Source: Acidobacteriota bacterium (lineage in GTDB: Bacteria; Acidobacteriota; Terriglobia; Bryobacterales; UBA6623). Taken from it: a stretch of DNA of 64,000 bases. Location: positions 806,001-870,000 of the forward strand of contig WGMB01000003.1 in the NCBI GenBank assembly GCA_016125275.1, read 5' to 3'. The position numbers were made by a program, and so were the translations under genes. Below the pieces are notes generated by a model. The model did no database searches, was not told the DNA's origin, and saw only the letters and a program-made list of their open reading frames with translations. This document shows positions 34,264 through 50,011 of the stretch, piece after piece; the stretch's first letter is position 1, and the number at the start of each line of letters is the position of its first letter.

Positions 34264-37200
34264 ATGCGTTATTTCCTGTCCCTGCTCCTGACGCTCTGCG
34301 CCCTGCCCCTGACCGCGCCCGCGGCGGACCTGCTGTTCGCCTTCGACGGCGATGCGGCGGTCGCGCGCGTCTATGACGCCGCCACGCTCACGCTGCTCTC
34401 CACGCCGCAAGTCCCTGCCGGCGCTCGGTTTGCAGTCGGCCGACCGGCGCCTTCGGGCAGTGGCTTCGACCGCATCTACTTGATCGGGGACGGTGGCGTG
34501 GAGGTTCTCGACGGCGCCTTCCAGAGTCTCGGGAGCATCGCGGTGGAAGGCTCGCCGGCGCCTCTGCAGCCGGCCGCGCTCAGCGCCGACGGACGGTTTC
34601 TGGTACTGGCCGCGGGCTCCAAGGCGTATCGCATCGACACGTCCGACGGCTCGATCGACACGATCGCCGAGACCGGCCGGGACTTGGCCGGGGTCGCGCT
34701 GCCGGCAGATTCCGGCTACGCCTTCCTGCTGGCCTCTGACCGGCGGACGGTGTTTCGCATGAACGTCTCGACCGGAGCGCTCGACGGACCGACGACGGCC
34801 TTGCCGGCGTTCGTCCAGGCGCTCCAGGCCGGACGAGCGACGGCGGAAGGCGGCTTGGCCGGGTTTGACCTCGGCAAGCTGTCCGACGCCTTCTTCGCAG
34901 CCGGAGAGCGGCCGAGCCGGGTTGTGGGAACCCGCTCCGCCGCCTCCGGCCTCGCCGAGCCCTCGGCCGCCTCGCCCGACGGCCGCGTCGAGTGGCGCAT
35001 GGCCGGCAACGGGTCCCTGCAGCGAGTGGACGTCACGGGCCAAACGGCAGCCCTCGAGACGCCTTCGGCCGGAACCACCGCGCTGGCCCTGCTCTCCGGG
35101 CCGGTAGTGGAACAAACCGGCCCGCAGCTCGAGAAGGTCGGAGGCGACGGCCAGATCGTGCTCGCCGGCAACCCCTTCACGCTGCAAGTGCAGGGCAGCG
35201 GTGGCGTCATCGGCGGGTTGCCGCTGGGCGTCTCCGTTTCGCCGTCGCTGGCAACGTGCAATGCGCCGGCGCTGAGTGGCGTGACCACCATCAACTGCAC
35301 GGCCTCGGTCTCGGTCCCGGCGTCGACCCAGGTTTCCATCACCGTCAGCGGCCTCGGCAACCCGGTGGTCTTCTCGGTGGTGGTCGTGCCGCAAGGCCTG
35401 TCGGACAGTCTGTCGATCGTGGCCGGCAACAACCAGAACGTCGCCACCGGCGCTTCGTTCTCGCTCTCGGTACGGTCGGTCAAGGGCGGCGTGCCCTTCT
35501 CGGGCGGCACGATCTCGGTGGCCTCGATCAGCCCGGGCGTGGCGACCTGCCCGACGTCGAGGACCGCTTCCCTGCTCGGCGAGGCGACCTTCGACTGCAC
35601 CGCGGACTTCGTCTCGGTGTTCACGCCGGTGACCATCCAACTCACCGACGGCGCCAACGTCGCCAACTTCCAGCTCAACGTGATCGCGGGGGGAGGCCCC
35701 AGCGGCGGGCTCGCCAAGGTCAGCGCCGATCCCTCCACGGCGGCGGAAGGCACGAGCTTCACCCTCACCGTGGAAGCCAAGATCGACGGCACGCCGCAGG
35801 TCGGGCTGCAAGTCAACGTCAACGCCGCCAGCGCGGCCATCACCTGCCCGGCGAACGCCACCACCAACCAGAGCGGCCAGGCCGCCATCATCTGCCAGGC
35901 GAACCAGGTCAACCAAGACACCACCACGACGGTCACGGTGAGCGAGGGCGGCCGTTCGGTGACCTTTACCGTCACCGTCGCCAACCAGGACCAGAGCGAC
36001 GGGTTGCGGATCGTCTCCGGCAACGGCCAAATCGTCACCCAGAACACCCAGTTCCCGCAGCCGCTCGTCGTCAGCGCCCGCATCAACGGCGTGCCGCAGA
36101 ATGGCCTCAAGCTGACCGTCCAGAGCAGCAACAACGCCGTCTTCTGCACGGATCAGCTGTTGACCGACGAAAACGGCCTCGGCCAGATCGTCTGCAACGC
36201 CGGCGCGGTCAGCAGCTTCACGACCGTGCAGATCCTGGTGTCGGACGACAACGGCCGCGTGCTGCCCGAACCCTTTACGGCCACGGTCTCGCCCACGCCG
36301 GTCGGCATCGCCACCGACATCGAGTTGCTGACGACCGGCCCATTGATCGGGACCGTGGGCGAGGAGGCGCCGACGGGCATCCGCGTGCGCGCCGTCAACG
36401 ACTCCAACGAGCCCGTGCCCGGCGCCACCATCTTCTTCCGCTCCAGCGCGGACCTGTCCTTCAGCCCAGCCGTGGTGACCTCCAACGTCAGCGGCGAGGC
36501 CGTCACGACCGTCACCTTCGGCTGCCCTTCGCGCACCGGAACCATCCAGATCGGCCTGACCGCCGTCTCCACCGAGGCCACCCTGGACTTCCAGGCCAAC
36601 AACGGCCCCTTGGCGCAGTTGCAGGTTTTGCAAGGCGACGGCCAGAGCGGCTCGCCGGGCGTTCGCATGGGGCAGGCGCTGCTGGTCCGCACGGCGGACG
36701 TCTGCGGCAACCCCGTGCCGAACACCGCGGTCGCCTGGGGCGTCAATCCGCCCGAAGCCGCCGCGCTCGAGGTCGTCGGCCAAGTCTCCAACGGCCAGGG
36801 GCAAGCCTCCGCGCTGGTGCGGCCCACGGCTCGCGGCGGCCCGTTCCAGGTGCTGGTGGCGGCCCAGTCTGACAGCTCCATCCAGGCGACGTTCAACCTC
36901 ACGGTCACGAACATCCCCACCTTCTTCCGCTCCGTCTCCGGAAACGCCCAAACCGTGGCCGCCGGAGCCGTGACGGCCGAACCGGTCGTGGTGGAAGTGC
37001 TCAACGAGCAGAGCCAGCCGGTGGCCGGCGTCAACGTCAGCTTCAGCGTGCTCGAGGGCGGGGTGACCATCGAGTCCCAAACCGGCGCGACCAACGCCAT
37101 GGGCCGCTCGTCGGCCTTCATCCGGGCGGGCTCCACGCTGGGGCCGGCCAAGGTGCGCGCGACGGCCTTGGGGCTGGCGGTGGACTTTTTGGTCAGCGTG

Positions 37201-37944
37201 CTCGGGGCCCAGCCGGTGCTCACCACCGACGGCTTCGTCAACGCGGCCAGCTTCCGGCCGGGGCTGAGCCCGGGTTCGGCCGCGTCGATCTTCGCGGTCA
37301 ACATCACCGGCGACGTGCAGGGCATCGCCGCCACGCCGTATGATCCGGCCAGCGGCTTCCCGACCGTCTTCCGCGGCGTCCAAGTGCTCGTCAACGGCGT
37401 CGCCGCCCCCATCCTGGCGCTGGTCAACATCAACGGACAGGAACAGGTGAACATCCAGGTCCCGTTCCAGACCAGCGGCAACTTCGCCACCGTCACCGTC
37501 ATCAACAACAGCTCGCAGAGCAGCATCCCCGGGGTCCCGGTCTTCAGCCCGCAGCCGGGGATCTTTGAAGTCACAGACACCGGCGGCTCGCGTTTCGCCG
37601 CAGCGCTGCACGTGGACTACTCGCTGGTCTCGCCCACCAACCCGGCGCGTCCGGGCGAAGCCGTGCAGCTCTTCCTAACCGGCATGGGGCGGCTGGAGCC
37701 GGCAGTGGCCACCAACGTAGCGGGACCGGTTCCCCCGGCGCTCACCGTGGCCGACCCGACGGTCACGCTCGACGGAACGGTGCAGGAGGTCCTGGGGTCG
37801 TTCTACGCGCCCCAGTTGATCTCGGTCTACCAGGTCAACTTCATCGTGGGCGCAGCGGCGCAGCCCGGCAACCGCGCCTTGCAGGTGGAGTTGAGCGGAG
37901 TGGGCTCGAAGATCGTCGTGCTGCCGGTCGGCGCAGCGCAATAA
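34264..37944 (+). CDS. giant secreted Ig-like repeat protein with Solibacter-type C-terminal domain
   Basis: 1226 residues. Signal peptide (MRYFLSLLLTLCALPLTAPA), a propeller-like N-terminal part (about 22-280: DLLFAFDGDAAVARVYDAAT), then at least six bacterial Ig-like (Big) repeats (about 285-990) with recurring wording such as VSGNGQIV, LTVEAKIDGTPQVGLQVNV, PANATTNQSGQAAIIC, GNPVPNTAVAW. Residues about 992-1226 form the Solibacter C-terminal domain (GFVNAASFRPGLSPGSAASIF, VQVLVNGVAAPILAL, NPARPGEAVQLFLTGMG, ISVYQVNFIV), probably a surface-retention or sorting module. Likely an adhesin-like surface protein. A very long minus-strand frame overlaps it but is a codon-bias shadow. Confidence 0.88.
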   Translation: MRYFLSLLLTLCALPLTAPAADLLFAFDGDAAVARVYDAATLTLLSTPQVPAGARFAVGRPAPSGSGFDRIYLIGDGGVEVLDGAFQSLGSIAVEGSPAPLQPAALSADGRFLVLAAGSKAYRIDTSDGSIDTIAETGRDLAGVALPADSGYAFLLASDRRTVFRMNVSTGALDGPTTALPAFVQALQAGRATAEGGLAGFDLGKLSDAFFAAGERPSRVVGTRSAASGLAEPSAASPDGRVEWRMAGNGSLQRVDVTGQTAALETPSAGTTALALLSGPVVEQTGPQLEKVGGDGQIVLAGNPFTLQVQGSGGVIGGLPLGVSVSPSLATCNAPALSGVTTINCTASVSVPASTQVSITVSGLGNPVVFSVVVVPQGLSDSLSIVAGNNQNVATGASFSLSVRSVKGGVPFSGGTISVASISPGVATCPTSRTASLLGEATFDCTADFVSVFTPVTIQLTDGANVANFQLNVIAGGGPSGGLAKVSADPSTAAEGTSFTLTVEAKIDGTPQVGLQVNVNAASAAITCPANATTNQSGQAAIICQANQVNQDTTTTVTVSEGGRSVTFTVTVANQDQSDGLRIVSGNGQIVTQNTQFPQPLVVSARINGVPQNGLKLTVQSSNNAVFCTDQLLTDENGLGQIVCNAGAVSSFTTVQILVSDDNGRVLPEPFTATVSPTPVGIATDIELLTTGPLIGTVGEEAPTGIRVRAVNDSNEPVPGATIFFRSSADLSFSPAVVTSNVSGEAVTTVTFGCPSRTGTIQIGLTAVSTEATLDFQANNGPLAQLQVLQGDGQSGSPGVRMGQALLVRTADVCGNPVPNTAVAWGVNPPEAAALEVVGQVSNGQGQASALVRPTARGGPFQVLVAAQSDSSIQATFNLTVTNIPTFFRSVSGNAQTVAAGAVTAEPVVVEVLNEQSQPVAGVNVSFSVLEGGVTIESQTGATNAMGRSSAFIRAGSTLGPAKVRATALGLAVDFLVSVLGAQPVLTTDGFVNAASFRPGLSPGSAASIFAVNITGDVQGIAATPYDPASGFPTVFRGVQVLVNGVAAPILALVNINGQEQVNIQVPFQTSGNFATVTVINNSSQSSIPGVPVFSPQPGIFEVTDTGGSRFAAALHVDYSLVSPTNPARPGEAVQLFLTGMGRLEPAVATNVAGPVPPALTVADPTVTLDGTVQEVLGSFYAPQLISVYQVNFIVGAAAQPGNRALQVELSGVGSKIVVLPVGAAQ

Positions 37945-45791: not shown

Positions 45792-45850
45792 TCGAGACCG
45801 CCCTCAGTATAACTGTGCGCGGCGGACGCCGAAGCGGCGCCGTGGATGGA

Positions 45851-45856
45851 TATAAT
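45851..45856 (+). promoter_or_regulatory. possible -10 box of the cupin gene
   Basis: Consensus TATAAT in an otherwise GC-rich gap, 68 bases before ATG 45924. No good -35 at 16-18 bases. On the opposite strand TATACT (45806-45811) stands 14 bases before the nfeD start. Confidence 0.35.
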
Positions 45857-45923
45857 TGAAGATTCGGACCTTGGGGGCCGGCGGAGCGAATGGGGTTCGC
45901 CGCCGGGGGCCGACGAAGAGCTG

Positions 45924-46295
45924 ATGCGGAAGCGCCACTGGGACACGATCGAGCACGAACGCATGACGCCCGGCATCGGGCGGCGCGTCGTGCACTCGAG
46001 CCGCATGACCACGGCCCGCATCTACATGGAGAAAGACGCCGTCGTGCCGTGGCACTCGCATGACAACGAGCAGATGAGCCACGTGCTCGAAGGCCGGCTG
46101 CTGTTCGAGTTCCCCGACGGCTCGTTGGAAGCCGGCCCGGGCGATGTCGTCGAGATTCCGCCCGATGAGCCGCACCGCGTGGTGGCGCTCGAGAATTCGG
46201 TCGCCATGGACGTCTTCGCGCCCGTTCGCGAGGACTGGGTGCGCGGCGACGACGCCTATTTGCGGAACCCTGACAGCAGCGACGCGCGTAAGTAG
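45924..46295 (+). CDS. small cupin-domain protein
   Basis: 123 residues from ATG 45924; the frame is open from 45846 but that start would place the TATAAT inside the gene. A single cupin barrel: motif 1 VVPWHSHDNEQMSHVLEGRL (His-x-His and Glu metal ligands) and motif 2 LEAGPGDVVEIPPDEPHRVVAL (His). The Phe-Pro-x-Gly loop ends motif 1. Such proteins bind a metal and may act as small enzymes or sensors; no substrate can be assigned. It stands alone between nfeD (divergent) and the giant protein gene. Confidence 0.8.
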   Translation: MRKRHWDTIEHERMTPGIGRRVVHSSRMTTARIYMEKDAVVPWHSHDNEQMSHVLEGRLLFEFPDGSLEAGPGDVVEIPPDEPHRVVALENSVAMDVFAPVREDWVRGDDAYLRNPDSSDARK

Positions 46296-46399: not shown

Positions 46400-49300
46400 A
46401 TGACCACGAAGAGCTTTTCCGCCAGGAATCTGTCGAGCCTGTTCGCCCTGCTGGCGCTGGGCCTGTCCGCCCCGCCGTCTCCGGCCCAACAGGAAGACCC
46501 CGCGCCGCAAGCCAAGGTTTGGGTGAACCACCAGGCCGCCCGGCTGGTGATCGGCCAGTCCAGCTTTACGCGGCAGGACCCCACGCCCACGCGCAGCTCC
46601 ATCGGCGGCGCCGGCGGCGTGGCCATCGGGGGCAACCGCCTGTTCGTCGCCGACGGGAACCGCATCGGCGCGGGCCCCATCGGCAACCGCGTGCTGGTCT
46701 ACAACAACCTCTCGGACTTCGTGCCGGTGCCGGAGGCGACCCTGCCGCAAGACGGCGACTGCCCGGCCTGCGTGGGTTTGGCCGACGTCGTGCTTGGTCA
46801 ATCGAATTTCGAGACCATCGACGCCGCCGCCGGCGGCGGCATGAAGGCGCCCTCGGCGGTGGCCAGCGACGGCCAGGTGCTGGCCGTGGCGGATACGAAC
46901 AACAACCGCGTGCTGCTGTGGCTCAGCATTCCCAGCTCCAACGGCGTCGCGCCGAACGTGATCCTGGGTCAGCCGGACAACAAGACCGTCACCCCGAAGA
47001 CCTCCCGCGACGGCATGCGCGGCCCCCAGGGCGTGTGGATCGGCGAGGGCAAGCTCTTCGTCGCCGACACCCAGAACTCGCGCATCCTCATCTGGAACCA
47101 GATTCCGCAACAGAACGGCGCGCAGCCGGACGTCGTCATCGGCCAGCCGGACTTCGACACCCGCCCCGAGCCGGATCTGACCCAGTCGGACTACGGCCCG
47201 ACGGCCAAGCGGCTCTACGATCCCATCGGCGTCTCCACCGCCAACGGCAAAATGTTCGTCGCCGACCTCGGCTTCGATCGGGTCCTGATCTACAACACGA
47301 TCCCGACCTCGAACGACCCGGCCGCGGACGTGGTCCTCGGCCAGCCTGACTTCGAGACCACCGGCTTCTTCGATCACGATGACGACACGACCACGGCGGC
47401 GATCCGGCGCGCGGTCTACCAGATGTGCGAGCCGCTGGGGCCGTTCGCCGACGACGGCAGCACCACCCCCGACGACTACATCTACCCCGATCCGATCGAC
47501 CGCACCGACCCCGAAGATCCCGTCACCCGCTACCCCAAGCGCTGCGAGTACACGCTGAACTTCCCGCGCGCGGTGATCTCCGACGGCCAGCGTCTATTCA
47601 TCGCCGATAGCGGCAACGACCGCATCCTGGTCTACAACGAGATCCCGACCGAGAGCGGGACCGCCGCCGACATCGTGATCGGCCAGCCCAACTTCATCGC
47701 CATGACCGATTCGGTCGGGCCGGGCAACGTGCGCTCGCCCACGGCGATGGCCCTCGATGACAACAACAACCTCTACGTAGCCGACCCCTACGTCCGGCGC
47801 GTGCTGGTGTTCAGCCCCGGCGTGAAGATGGTCGACGACGAAGGCATCCGCAACGGCGCCAGCTTCGCGATCTACGCCAACGGCTACGTGCAGTGGGAAG
47901 GCGCCACCACCGACGACGGCCAGCTCGTCCAGCTCGACATCTCCGGCCGCCATTACGAGATGACCACCGCGAAGGGCGAGACCGGCGAGAGCGTGCGCAA
48001 CAAGATGCTGCAGGCGATCCAGGACGACGAGTACAGCCTCGTCACCGCAACGCCGGAGAACGGCCTCGGCACCTTCTCCAAGGCCGGCATCCGCTTCGGC
48101 GGCACGGTCCGCAGCGGCGAGTCGGTGACGTTGCAGGTGGGCGATATCAAGTACGAGTTCGTGACCAACGACTTCGACGCCGAGCAGGGCCCCTACATCC
48201 TCGTCGACCGCTTCAAGTACCTGATCGACCACGCCGAGACCGAGCTGCCCTACATCGCCACGCGTTCGGAATCCGAGCTCGAGGTGCTGGTGCTGACGGC
48301 CAAGAAGGCCGGCCCGGAGCTCAACGGCACGCCGTTTGCGATCTACGCCGCCGCGGACACCCAGCTCACCGTCGAGTACGCCCCGTCGGACCCGGTCGTG
48401 TTTTCCGGCGGCGCCTTCCCGGCGCGCATCCGCCTGACGGCCAAGTTCGAGGGCCGGCCGGGCAACGCCGTCACCATCGACAACCAGCTCGGCGGCGCCG
48501 GCATCACCACCAGCACCTCCGGCGCACGCCTGGAGTTTGGCAGCGACGCCCGGCAGTTGCCGGCCGGCACCTTCGCGGCGATCTTCGGCGAAGGCTTCTC
48601 GGACCAGGTCTACACCGCCGGGGTCGACGAGAACGGCCTCCTGCCGACGCGGCTGGGCGGCGTGGAAGTCTATACCAACGGCGTGCGGTCGCCGATCTAC
48701 GCCGTCACCCCGAACCAGATCAACTATCAGGTGCCGTGGGAAGTAGCCGGCCAGGGCGTGAGCACATGGGTGCGCCGCGTCTTCGACGACGGCTCCGTGC
48801 GCGTCTCCATCGCCCGCGCCAACGACGTCACGCGCGCCGCCCCCGGCGTGTTCACCTACCCCGGCAACGAGCCGCGCCAGGCCGTCGCGTTGCACGGTCA
48901 GGGCACGGCCGAGGGCTCCGTGGCGCTGTCACTGGGCACCGGCGTGACCTCCGGCTCGACGCAGGAGCAAACGGAGACCGTCGACGCCGGCGCCACGGTG
49001 ACCATCACCATCAACGGCCGCACGTACGCCTATACGACTCAGACCGACGACACTCTCGAAGCCGTCCGCGACCGGCTGATCGAGCTCATCAACAACGGCA
49101 ATGATCCCGATGCGGTGGCCGAGGCCGGTCGGCAGGGCTTCTTCTCCGCCCGCGCGACCGTCGACCTCGCGGGTACGCCTGCAGCCGGCGACGTGGTGAC
49201 GATCACGATCGGTTCCGACCCGGCGCGCGAGTATTCCTACACCGTGCAGGAAGACGACACGTTGACGGTCATCCGCAACGTGCTGGTGCAGCGCATCAAC

Positions 49301-50011
49301 GGCGGCTTGGGCGACCGCGAAGTGACCGCGCGCGTTCTGGACGTCATCGGCGCCGTCGAATTCCAGGTCGTCGCGCGCTCCCTCGGCGAAGACGGCAACC
49401 TGATCGCCTTCGCCGTTGACGCCTCCAGCGGGGCGGGCGTGGACGTGACCACCAACGTCGAGGACGGCTTCCTGATCGGCGGACAGACGCCGCCCGTCGT
49501 CATCATCCGCGCCCGGGCCTCGGGCCGCGACGGCAACTCGGTGACTTACACGGCCGAATCGAGCGACCTCACGATCATCTCGGCCACGGCGCGCACGGCC
49601 ACTCTGTGCTGCGGCAACGACCCGTTTACGCCCATCACCACGGACAATCCCGCCGTGCCGGGCGAGCACGTCATCGTCTACGCCTCCGGGCTCGGCCTGA
49701 CGTCCCCGCTGCCGAAGGACGCCGGCCTGCAAACCGGTCAGGTCACGCCGGAGTCCCAGCTCTTCACGGTCCCCGCCGTCGCTGACGACTTCGTCTCCTC
49801 TCGGATCGGAGGCCGCACCGCCACGGTGGAGTTCGTGGGGCTGGCGCCGGGCATGGTGGGGGTCTACCAGGTCAATCTGATCCTCAACGAGCAACTGCCC
49901 GACGACCCGTTGACCCCGGTGACGGTGGAGCAGGGCTTCTACATCAGCAACGCGGCCACGATTCCGGTGAAGAACCTGACGCCGCGCGATCCTGACACGA
50001 CCGTCCAGTAG
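46400..50011 (+). CDS. giant secreted NHL-repeat protein with twice-interrupted Solibacter C-terminal domain
   Basis: 1203 residues. Signal peptide (SSLFALLALGLSAPPSPAQ), then NHL-type blades (about 35-475) each with a recurring phrase: NRLFVADG, QVLAVADTNNNRVLLW, GKLFVADTQNSRILIW, GKMFVADLGFDRVLIY, QRLFIADSGNDRILVY, NNLYVADPYVRRVLVF, each followed by VVLGQPDF-type text. The Solibacter C-terminal domain starts at IRNGASFAIY (about 482), resumes at LPAGTFAAIFGEGFSD (about 719) through APGVFTYPGNEP (about 825), and resumes again at VPGEHVIVYASGLGLTSP (about 1086) through VGVYQVNLIL. The two interruptions (about 490-715 and 850-1080) are copies of one module. Probably a surface protein. Confidence 0.87.
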   Translation: MTTKSFSARNLSSLFALLALGLSAPPSPAQQEDPAPQAKVWVNHQAARLVIGQSSFTRQDPTPTRSSIGGAGGVAIGGNRLFVADGNRIGAGPIGNRVLVYNNLSDFVPVPEATLPQDGDCPACVGLADVVLGQSNFETIDAAAGGGMKAPSAVASDGQVLAVADTNNNRVLLWLSIPSSNGVAPNVILGQPDNKTVTPKTSRDGMRGPQGVWIGEGKLFVADTQNSRILIWNQIPQQNGAQPDVVIGQPDFDTRPEPDLTQSDYGPTAKRLYDPIGVSTANGKMFVADLGFDRVLIYNTIPTSNDPAADVVLGQPDFETTGFFDHDDDTTTAAIRRAVYQMCEPLGPFADDGSTTPDDYIYPDPIDRTDPEDPVTRYPKRCEYTLNFPRAVISDGQRLFIADSGNDRILVYNEIPTESGTAADIVIGQPNFIAMTDSVGPGNVRSPTAMALDDNNNLYVADPYVRRVLVFSPGVKMVDDEGIRNGASFAIYANGYVQWEGATTDDGQLVQLDISGRHYEMTTAKGETGESVRNKMLQAIQDDEYSLVTATPENGLGTFSKAGIRFGGTVRSGESVTLQVGDIKYEFVTNDFDAEQGPYILVDRFKYLIDHAETELPYIATRSESELEVLVLTAKKAGPELNGTPFAIYAAADTQLTVEYAPSDPVVFSGGAFPARIRLTAKFEGRPGNAVTIDNQLGGAGITTSTSGARLEFGSDARQLPAGTFAAIFGEGFSDQVYTAGVDENGLLPTRLGGVEVYTNGVRSPIYAVTPNQINYQVPWEVAGQGVSTWVRRVFDDGSVRVSIARANDVTRAAPGVFTYPGNEPRQAVALHGQGTAEGSVALSLGTGVTSGSTQEQTETVDAGATVTITINGRTYAYTTQTDDTLEAVRDRLIELINNGNDPDAVAEAGRQGFFSARATVDLAGTPAAGDVVTITIGSDPAREYSYTVQEDDTLTVIRNVLVQRINGGLGDREVTARVLDVIGAVEFQVVARSLGEDGNLIAFAVDASSGAGVDVTTNVEDGFLIGGQTPPVVIIRARASGRDGNSVTYTAESSDLTIISATARTATLCCGNDPFTPITTDNPAVPGEHVIVYASGLGLTSPLPKDAGLQTGQVTPESQLFTVPAVADDFVSSRIGGRTATVEFVGLAPGMVGVYQVNLILNEQLPDDPLTPVTVEQGFYISNAATIPVKNLTPRDPDTTVQ

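Follow-up and report, generated by a model that had tools for sequence, protein, structure and literature searches.

Gene and protein architecture

The window, that is the whole stretch of DNA analysed here, comprises 64,000 nucleotides of an Acidobacteriota genome and contains at 46400-50011 (+) an intact open reading frame for a protein of 1203 residues, whose GC content at codon positions 1, 2 and 3 (0.64/0.48/0.92) follows the pattern of a real gene. A signal-peptide-like N-terminus is followed by an NHL-type beta-propeller and by a C-terminal Soli_cterm domain (hereafter the host), which is interrupted by two related modules, A and B, at sites A and B (Table 1). Judging from its sequence, this NHL-propeller protein is probably exported via Sec. 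Its propeller shares 42-54% identity with homologues from across the order and from three further families of the class; for the propeller homologues of those three families, 39-46% was measured. Full-length orthologues in its own family share about 45-58% identity with it. A small cupin-like open reading frame lies immediately upstream (window positions 45846-46295); by eye, a similar one precedes the orthologue at locus L147, and dprA/topA-like genes follow the orthologues of family f3. As a clue to function, this gene neighbourhood, upstream and downstream, was inspected by eye and set aside as uninformative.

Table 1 Coordinates (window positions) of the features of the 1203-residue protein and of the comparison protein.
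Feature	Coordinates	Strand	Residues and evidence
Signal-peptide-like N-terminus	46400..46489	+	Residues 1-30, MTTKSFSARNLSSLFALLALGLSAPPSPAQ; judged from sequence alone, without a signal-peptide predictor
NHL-type beta-propeller	46511..47815	+	About residues 38-472; repeated IGQPDF / ADTxNNRVLxW motifs; PF01436 NHL E 1.9e-12
Detached N-terminal host motif	47843..47866	+	Residues 482-489, IRNGASF region; alignment A1
Module A at site A	47873..48529	+	Residues 492-710; unit 2 nested in unit 1
Module A outer unit 1, first part	47873..48082	+	Residues 492-561, strand-strand-helix (secondary structure of the model); vs first half of unit 2A E 1.7e-11
Module A inner unit 2, complete	48083..48391	+	Residues 562-664; unit 2A vs unit 2B E 5.8e-24
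Module A outer unit 1, closing part	48392..48529	+	Residues 665-710, RLTAKFEGRPGNAVT; vs second half of unit 2A E 1.4e-6
Soli_cterm half 1	48554..48913	+	Residues 719-838; host HMM positions 11-125, E 1.9e-21
Module B at site B	48914..49606	+	Residues 839-1069; unit 2 nested in unit 1
Module B outer unit 1, first part	48914..49147	+	Residues 839-916; profile vs unit 2B E 3.9e-16
Module B inner unit 2, complete	49148..49453	+	Residues 917-1018; profile comparison, unit HMM
Module B outer unit 1, closing part	49454..49606	+	Residues 1019-1069, IIRARASGRDGNSVT; vs second half of unit 2B E 4.4e-5
Adjacent Cys-Cys, module B / half 2 junction	49607..49612	+	Residues 1070-1071; invariant in alignments A1 and A4
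Soli_cterm half 2	49616..49969	+	Residues 1073-1190; host HMM positions 118-226, E 6.9e-21
Uninterrupted Soli_cterm, comparison protein 34264-37944	37237..37929	+	Residues 992-1222; TIGR03437 positions 2-224 in one stretch; host HMM positions 2-225, E 9.4e-42

The Soli_cterm host is built of two homologous halves

Soli_cterm (TIGR03437) is a C-terminal paralogous domain of Acidobacteriota; the literature searched held no mention of TIGR03437. The model matches the 1203-residue protein far above its cut-off (127.7 bits against 29.05), not as one contiguous domain of about 225 positions but in two stretches, to which a detached motif is added: NGASF at residues 485-489, whose equivalent in uninterrupted hosts immediately precedes vaPGeivsiFG. 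The division of this domain into three pieces, which a first-pass annotation had proposed, is thus borne out, with pieces at 482-489, 719-838 and 1073-1190. For the host HMM, 30 Soli_cterm domains without interruption were taken from the genome under study; it places half 1 at 719-839 and half 2 at 1073-1190. The annotation's wording of one domain interrupted twice is to be softened, since the host consists of two mutually homologous halves (hhalign, E 7e-14), both probably Ig-like. Sites A and B are equivalent, each lying immediately before strand 1 of its host half, and because they precede homologous halves in this way, the modules of the 1203-residue protein resemble insertions between repeats more closely than interruptions of a single compact fold.

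Such a geometry also suits a plainer account, in which the modules are two extra domains strung like beads in the linkers before Ig-like halves and the host is unremarkable, and the single compact units found at these sites in family f3 (see below) speak for it as well. It fits less well with the separation of the N-terminal NAASF motif from half 1 by module A, or with family f93, where units lie inside half 2 (host positions 156-159 / 155-177, a point differing from sites A and B) and the rest of the host is complete. Moreover, among about 100 Soli_cterm matches in the 7.55 Mb genome, the 1203-residue protein is the only one split by inserts into two strong pieces, whereas strong matches elsewhere in that genome are contiguous. 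We therefore regard the linker account as rather unlikely.

The protein called a sister at 34264-37944 does carry an uninterrupted host domain; its N-terminal part, however, consists of Big_1 Ig repeats without a propeller, so that the kinship is confined to the C-terminal domain. An unbroken host is the norm both in this genome and among NHL paralogues, five of which show one in the part of the sequence covered. In the 1203-residue protein, the host ends at residue 1190, near the C-terminus, and in 26 of 30 sampled proteins of the same genome only 0-5 residues separate the end of Soli_cterm from the stop codon, a placement that suggests a role in anchoring or sorting.

Where module B meets half 2, two adjacent cysteines are invariant in the order-wide alignment A4. 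One selection step for f3 proteins had demanded a CC.N motif, and for this reason the pair was rechecked on six loci left out of the selection for A4. Five of the six hold it and one does not; the f3 locus L138 reads SGAN at this point, and the pair is also missing from the outgroup f93 protein L193. A vicinal disulfide at residues 1070-1071 is possible.

Each module is a unit inserted into a unit of the same family

The proposal that the two interruptions are copies of one module with the same internal order was confirmed. BLASTP aligns modules A and B with 27% identity over 204 residues (E 2e-12), and profile-profile comparison with 18 orthologues each, the test by which the first-pass annotation had wished to be judged, returned a significant match (probability 99.9, E 9e-34, 190 columns); taken together, these results show that the likeness is not due to chance. 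The module does occur at two points of the host, as had been noted, but the true nesting lies within the module itself, where unit 2 sits inside unit 1. The 'closing' RLTAKFEGRPGNAVT piece, previously read as a separate unit, is instead the second half of unit 1 according to profile matches and the unit HMM: since the closing part matches the second half of the inner unit, it completes the outer unit around unit 2. In module B, head and tail of the outer unit, once joined, match the inner unit at E 8.4e-19. A unit HMM derived from f1 inner units only recovers the same arrangement in two f2 proteins, with a head (positions 3-57), a complete unit (3-98) and a tail (65-99) following each other consecutively. 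By sequence comparison, each module, some 220-230 residues long, is a unit of about 100 residues in whose middle another member of that unit family is inserted.

Predicted structure and relatives of the unit

Residues 470-1203 were modelled with AlphaFold2 from 54 sequences (pLDDT 87.9, pTM 0.71), with host halves and modules both at high confidence and with the units of the modules predicted as strand-strand-helix-strand-strand. An earlier run on 18 family sequences had returned pLDDT values under 50 for a large part of the host, which was cured by an alignment with 38 further f2 and f3 sequences.

The best domain-level Foldseek matches were to 8erm (P. aeruginosa FliC D2/D3; probability 1.00, E 5.9e-6 and 1.4e-5), where the rmsd over the D2/D3 pair is high and the likeness covers the fold, apart from the two-lobe arrangement. 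Phage tail sheaths 8fqc and 8kee were matched at 3.5-4.0 Å. Multi-Ig proteins (complement, macroglobulins) appeared in the whole-model search at high rmsd and were discarded as noise. A match to 4hw6 (BACOVA_00264) had a probability of 1.00 over 122 columns; we take this protein to combine an NHL propeller with IPT/TIG domains, and unlike the protein described here it is without sheath-like units.

At the sequence level, the tail sheath profile PHROG 165 matches 21 of 21 units, over profile positions of about 108-202 (best 1.6e-10), and a PDB profile search matched sheath 9hz7 across the whole unit (E 3.1e-4). In the same type of search, MpAFP RII and the TOP7/OR designs matched just a short hairpin or a plain strand-strand-helix pattern, and were rejected. 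The unit aligns to residues 98-197 of the Milano sheath, in which residues 91-203 of gp20 form an external extension domain inserted in the body domain (PMC10811340). The likeness to the contractile phage tail sheath (Milano gp20, PHROG 165, PF17481) hence extends over the full length of the unit, and the Milano extension domain is likewise inserted in another domain and faces outward, as the units here would. Unlike a sheath, the 1203-residue protein is without body and handshake domains, no sheath match being found outside its units, and the unit is self-nested and resides in a probably secreted propeller protein.

The flagellin parallel concerns topology. In PAO1 FliC, the chain runs through D3 (243-353) and then comes back to complete D2, the two domains sharing a strand within one bilobal body (8ERM), and in PAK flagellin the outer domain is about 90 residues smaller (PMC10256154). 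The insertion of D3 midway through D2, with return of the chain, resembles the nested units of the modules, and the difference in size between the PAK and PAO1 outer domains parallels that between the single units of f3 and the nested ones. By contrast, the shared-strand bilobal body is a feature of PAO1 and counts as a difference, the D0/D1 helical core is missing (no flagellin N or C domain was found in the 1203-residue protein), and the link in sequence runs only through weak matches to PF07196 Flagellin_IN (best E 0.0035, below cut-off). PF17481 Phage_sheath_domII likewise stayed below its gathering cut-off (best E 0.003, in 3 of 21 units), and with both scores at this level the unit is to be read as a relative of those domains, and the protein as neither a sheath nor a flagellin. 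Profile matches thus make the unit a relative of the phage sheath extension domain, and its predicted model resembles flagellin D2/D3.

Distribution and alternative insertions in related families

Each of the 18 genomes searched in the own family encodes one full-length orthologue with both modules at identical points. Most of the sequence depth of the analysis comes from one family. Both f2 proteins carry nested modules, and all 60 fetched f3 proteins have exactly one plain unit per site at both sites. Two f3 proteins are longer, L122 (1172 residues) and L127 (1390 residues), and L122 shows an extra host-half match (positions 4-115) beyond the usual C-terminus. The unit was present in 195 of 200 genomes of the order, which to judge from named paralogue matches is probably Bryobacterales. 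In a phylum-wide draw of 396 genomes, the module HMM matched in seven: three belonged to the order, and the other four, from outside the order, gave weak matches. The full protein was recovered at E 1e-30 in the order only. A module search found no copies elsewhere in the same genome; with the more sensitive unit profile, a single protein there, of 902 residues and without a propeller, proved to carry two plain units (C6:83950-85332; L107, L109). Proteins of about 1000 residues in other genomes also gave weak unit matches, and these may represent porter domains of transporters.

In a tree of 72 units, every positional group except unit 1A forms a single clade. The f3 unit at site B clusters with unit 1B, the outer one of module B (support 97/94), which identifies the outer unit as the one shared at this site. 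For site A and for the order of events, AU tests rejected no alternative grouping, so that nesting may have come before or after copying to the two sites, and the inner unit may have been gained in f1/f2 or lost in f3. The modules have been inherited vertically at fixed sites.

Outside the order, three other families of the class (f93, f90 and f96) possess propeller homologues that retain the host and bear other inserts. Six f93 proteins (L193, L195, L196, L201, L202 and L203) contain 2, 3, 4, 4, 6 and 6 tandem units, respectively, inside half 2, and these 25 units form a clade of their own (SH-aLRT 97), pointing to local amplification. The f90 protein has one unit and FN3-like sequence, and the f96 protein FN3-like sequence and other small repeats; in these two single-genome families (f96 and f90; L192, L194) the FN3-like stretches, assigned by eye, or other small repeats occupy site A as well as the interior of half 2. 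All decorated proteins form one clade of the propeller tree (100/99), in which groups follow taxonomy, and the uninterrupted NHL paralogues form another. The varied inserts within this single clade indicate that the same scaffold has been decorated repeatedly.

The first-pass annotation had suspected a mobile or adhesive unit; an adhesive role is possible. A mobile unit would be a DNA or protein element that spreads itself from one protein or site to another. Although the unit family occupies three sites of one host family and one unrelated protein in the same genome, its sites are fixed within the order (in 18 of 18 genomes of the own family), nearly each positional unit is its own lineage, the 902-residue protein is its sole other location in the genome, and local tandem growth accounts for the f93 units. 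The idea is accordingly very improbable.

Repeat-driven internal duplication might also have produced neutral ornament, units tolerated without a function. The f93 arrays of 2-6 units and the low identity between copies are compatible with this, but sites and unit numbers are kept throughout the 18 family genomes and the 60 f3 proteins, where identity is about 50% or lower, and glycines and aspartates are invariant and the Cys-Cys nearly so; we consider neutrality unlikely, somewhat more so than the linker account.

Discussion

We consider it likely that the locus encodes a secreted NHL propeller whose C-terminal Soli_cterm scaffold carries lineage-specific protruding domains. A single-copy and probably Sec-exported propeller protein would end in a two-half scaffold which, in its own family, would hold one module ahead of each half, with unit 2 inside unit 1. 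The protein would be located outside the cytoplasm, where the units may protrude and, by analogy with the outer domains of flagellins and sheaths, alter its size, reach or binding. Repeated insertion may have been tolerated by the scaffold because the host loops are exposed.

The presence of the same unit in other places and numbers on the same scaffold in related species makes this scaffold resemble a display stand. A bolder version, which we advance tentatively and hold to be somewhat less probable than not, is that the Soli_cterm region of one orthologous propeller family could be a natural display scaffold, into at least three loops of which lineages across the class would have independently plugged units of the sheath-extension or flagellin-outer type, be they single, nested in themselves or tandem, and other small beta domains, under selection for changing surface interaction.

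It is uncommon for a domain to sit inside its own copy and for the nested pair to occupy two equivalent positions in a further domain. Since simpler and alternative stages survive in related families, the stepwise growth of nested domains is open to study here. The findings point to Soli_cterm as an insertion-tolerant scaffold. Flagellins and phage sheaths use the fold to which the unit belongs for their outward-facing parts, which furthermore yields a prediction open to testing for this probably secreted soil Acidobacteriota protein, one that is widely conserved.
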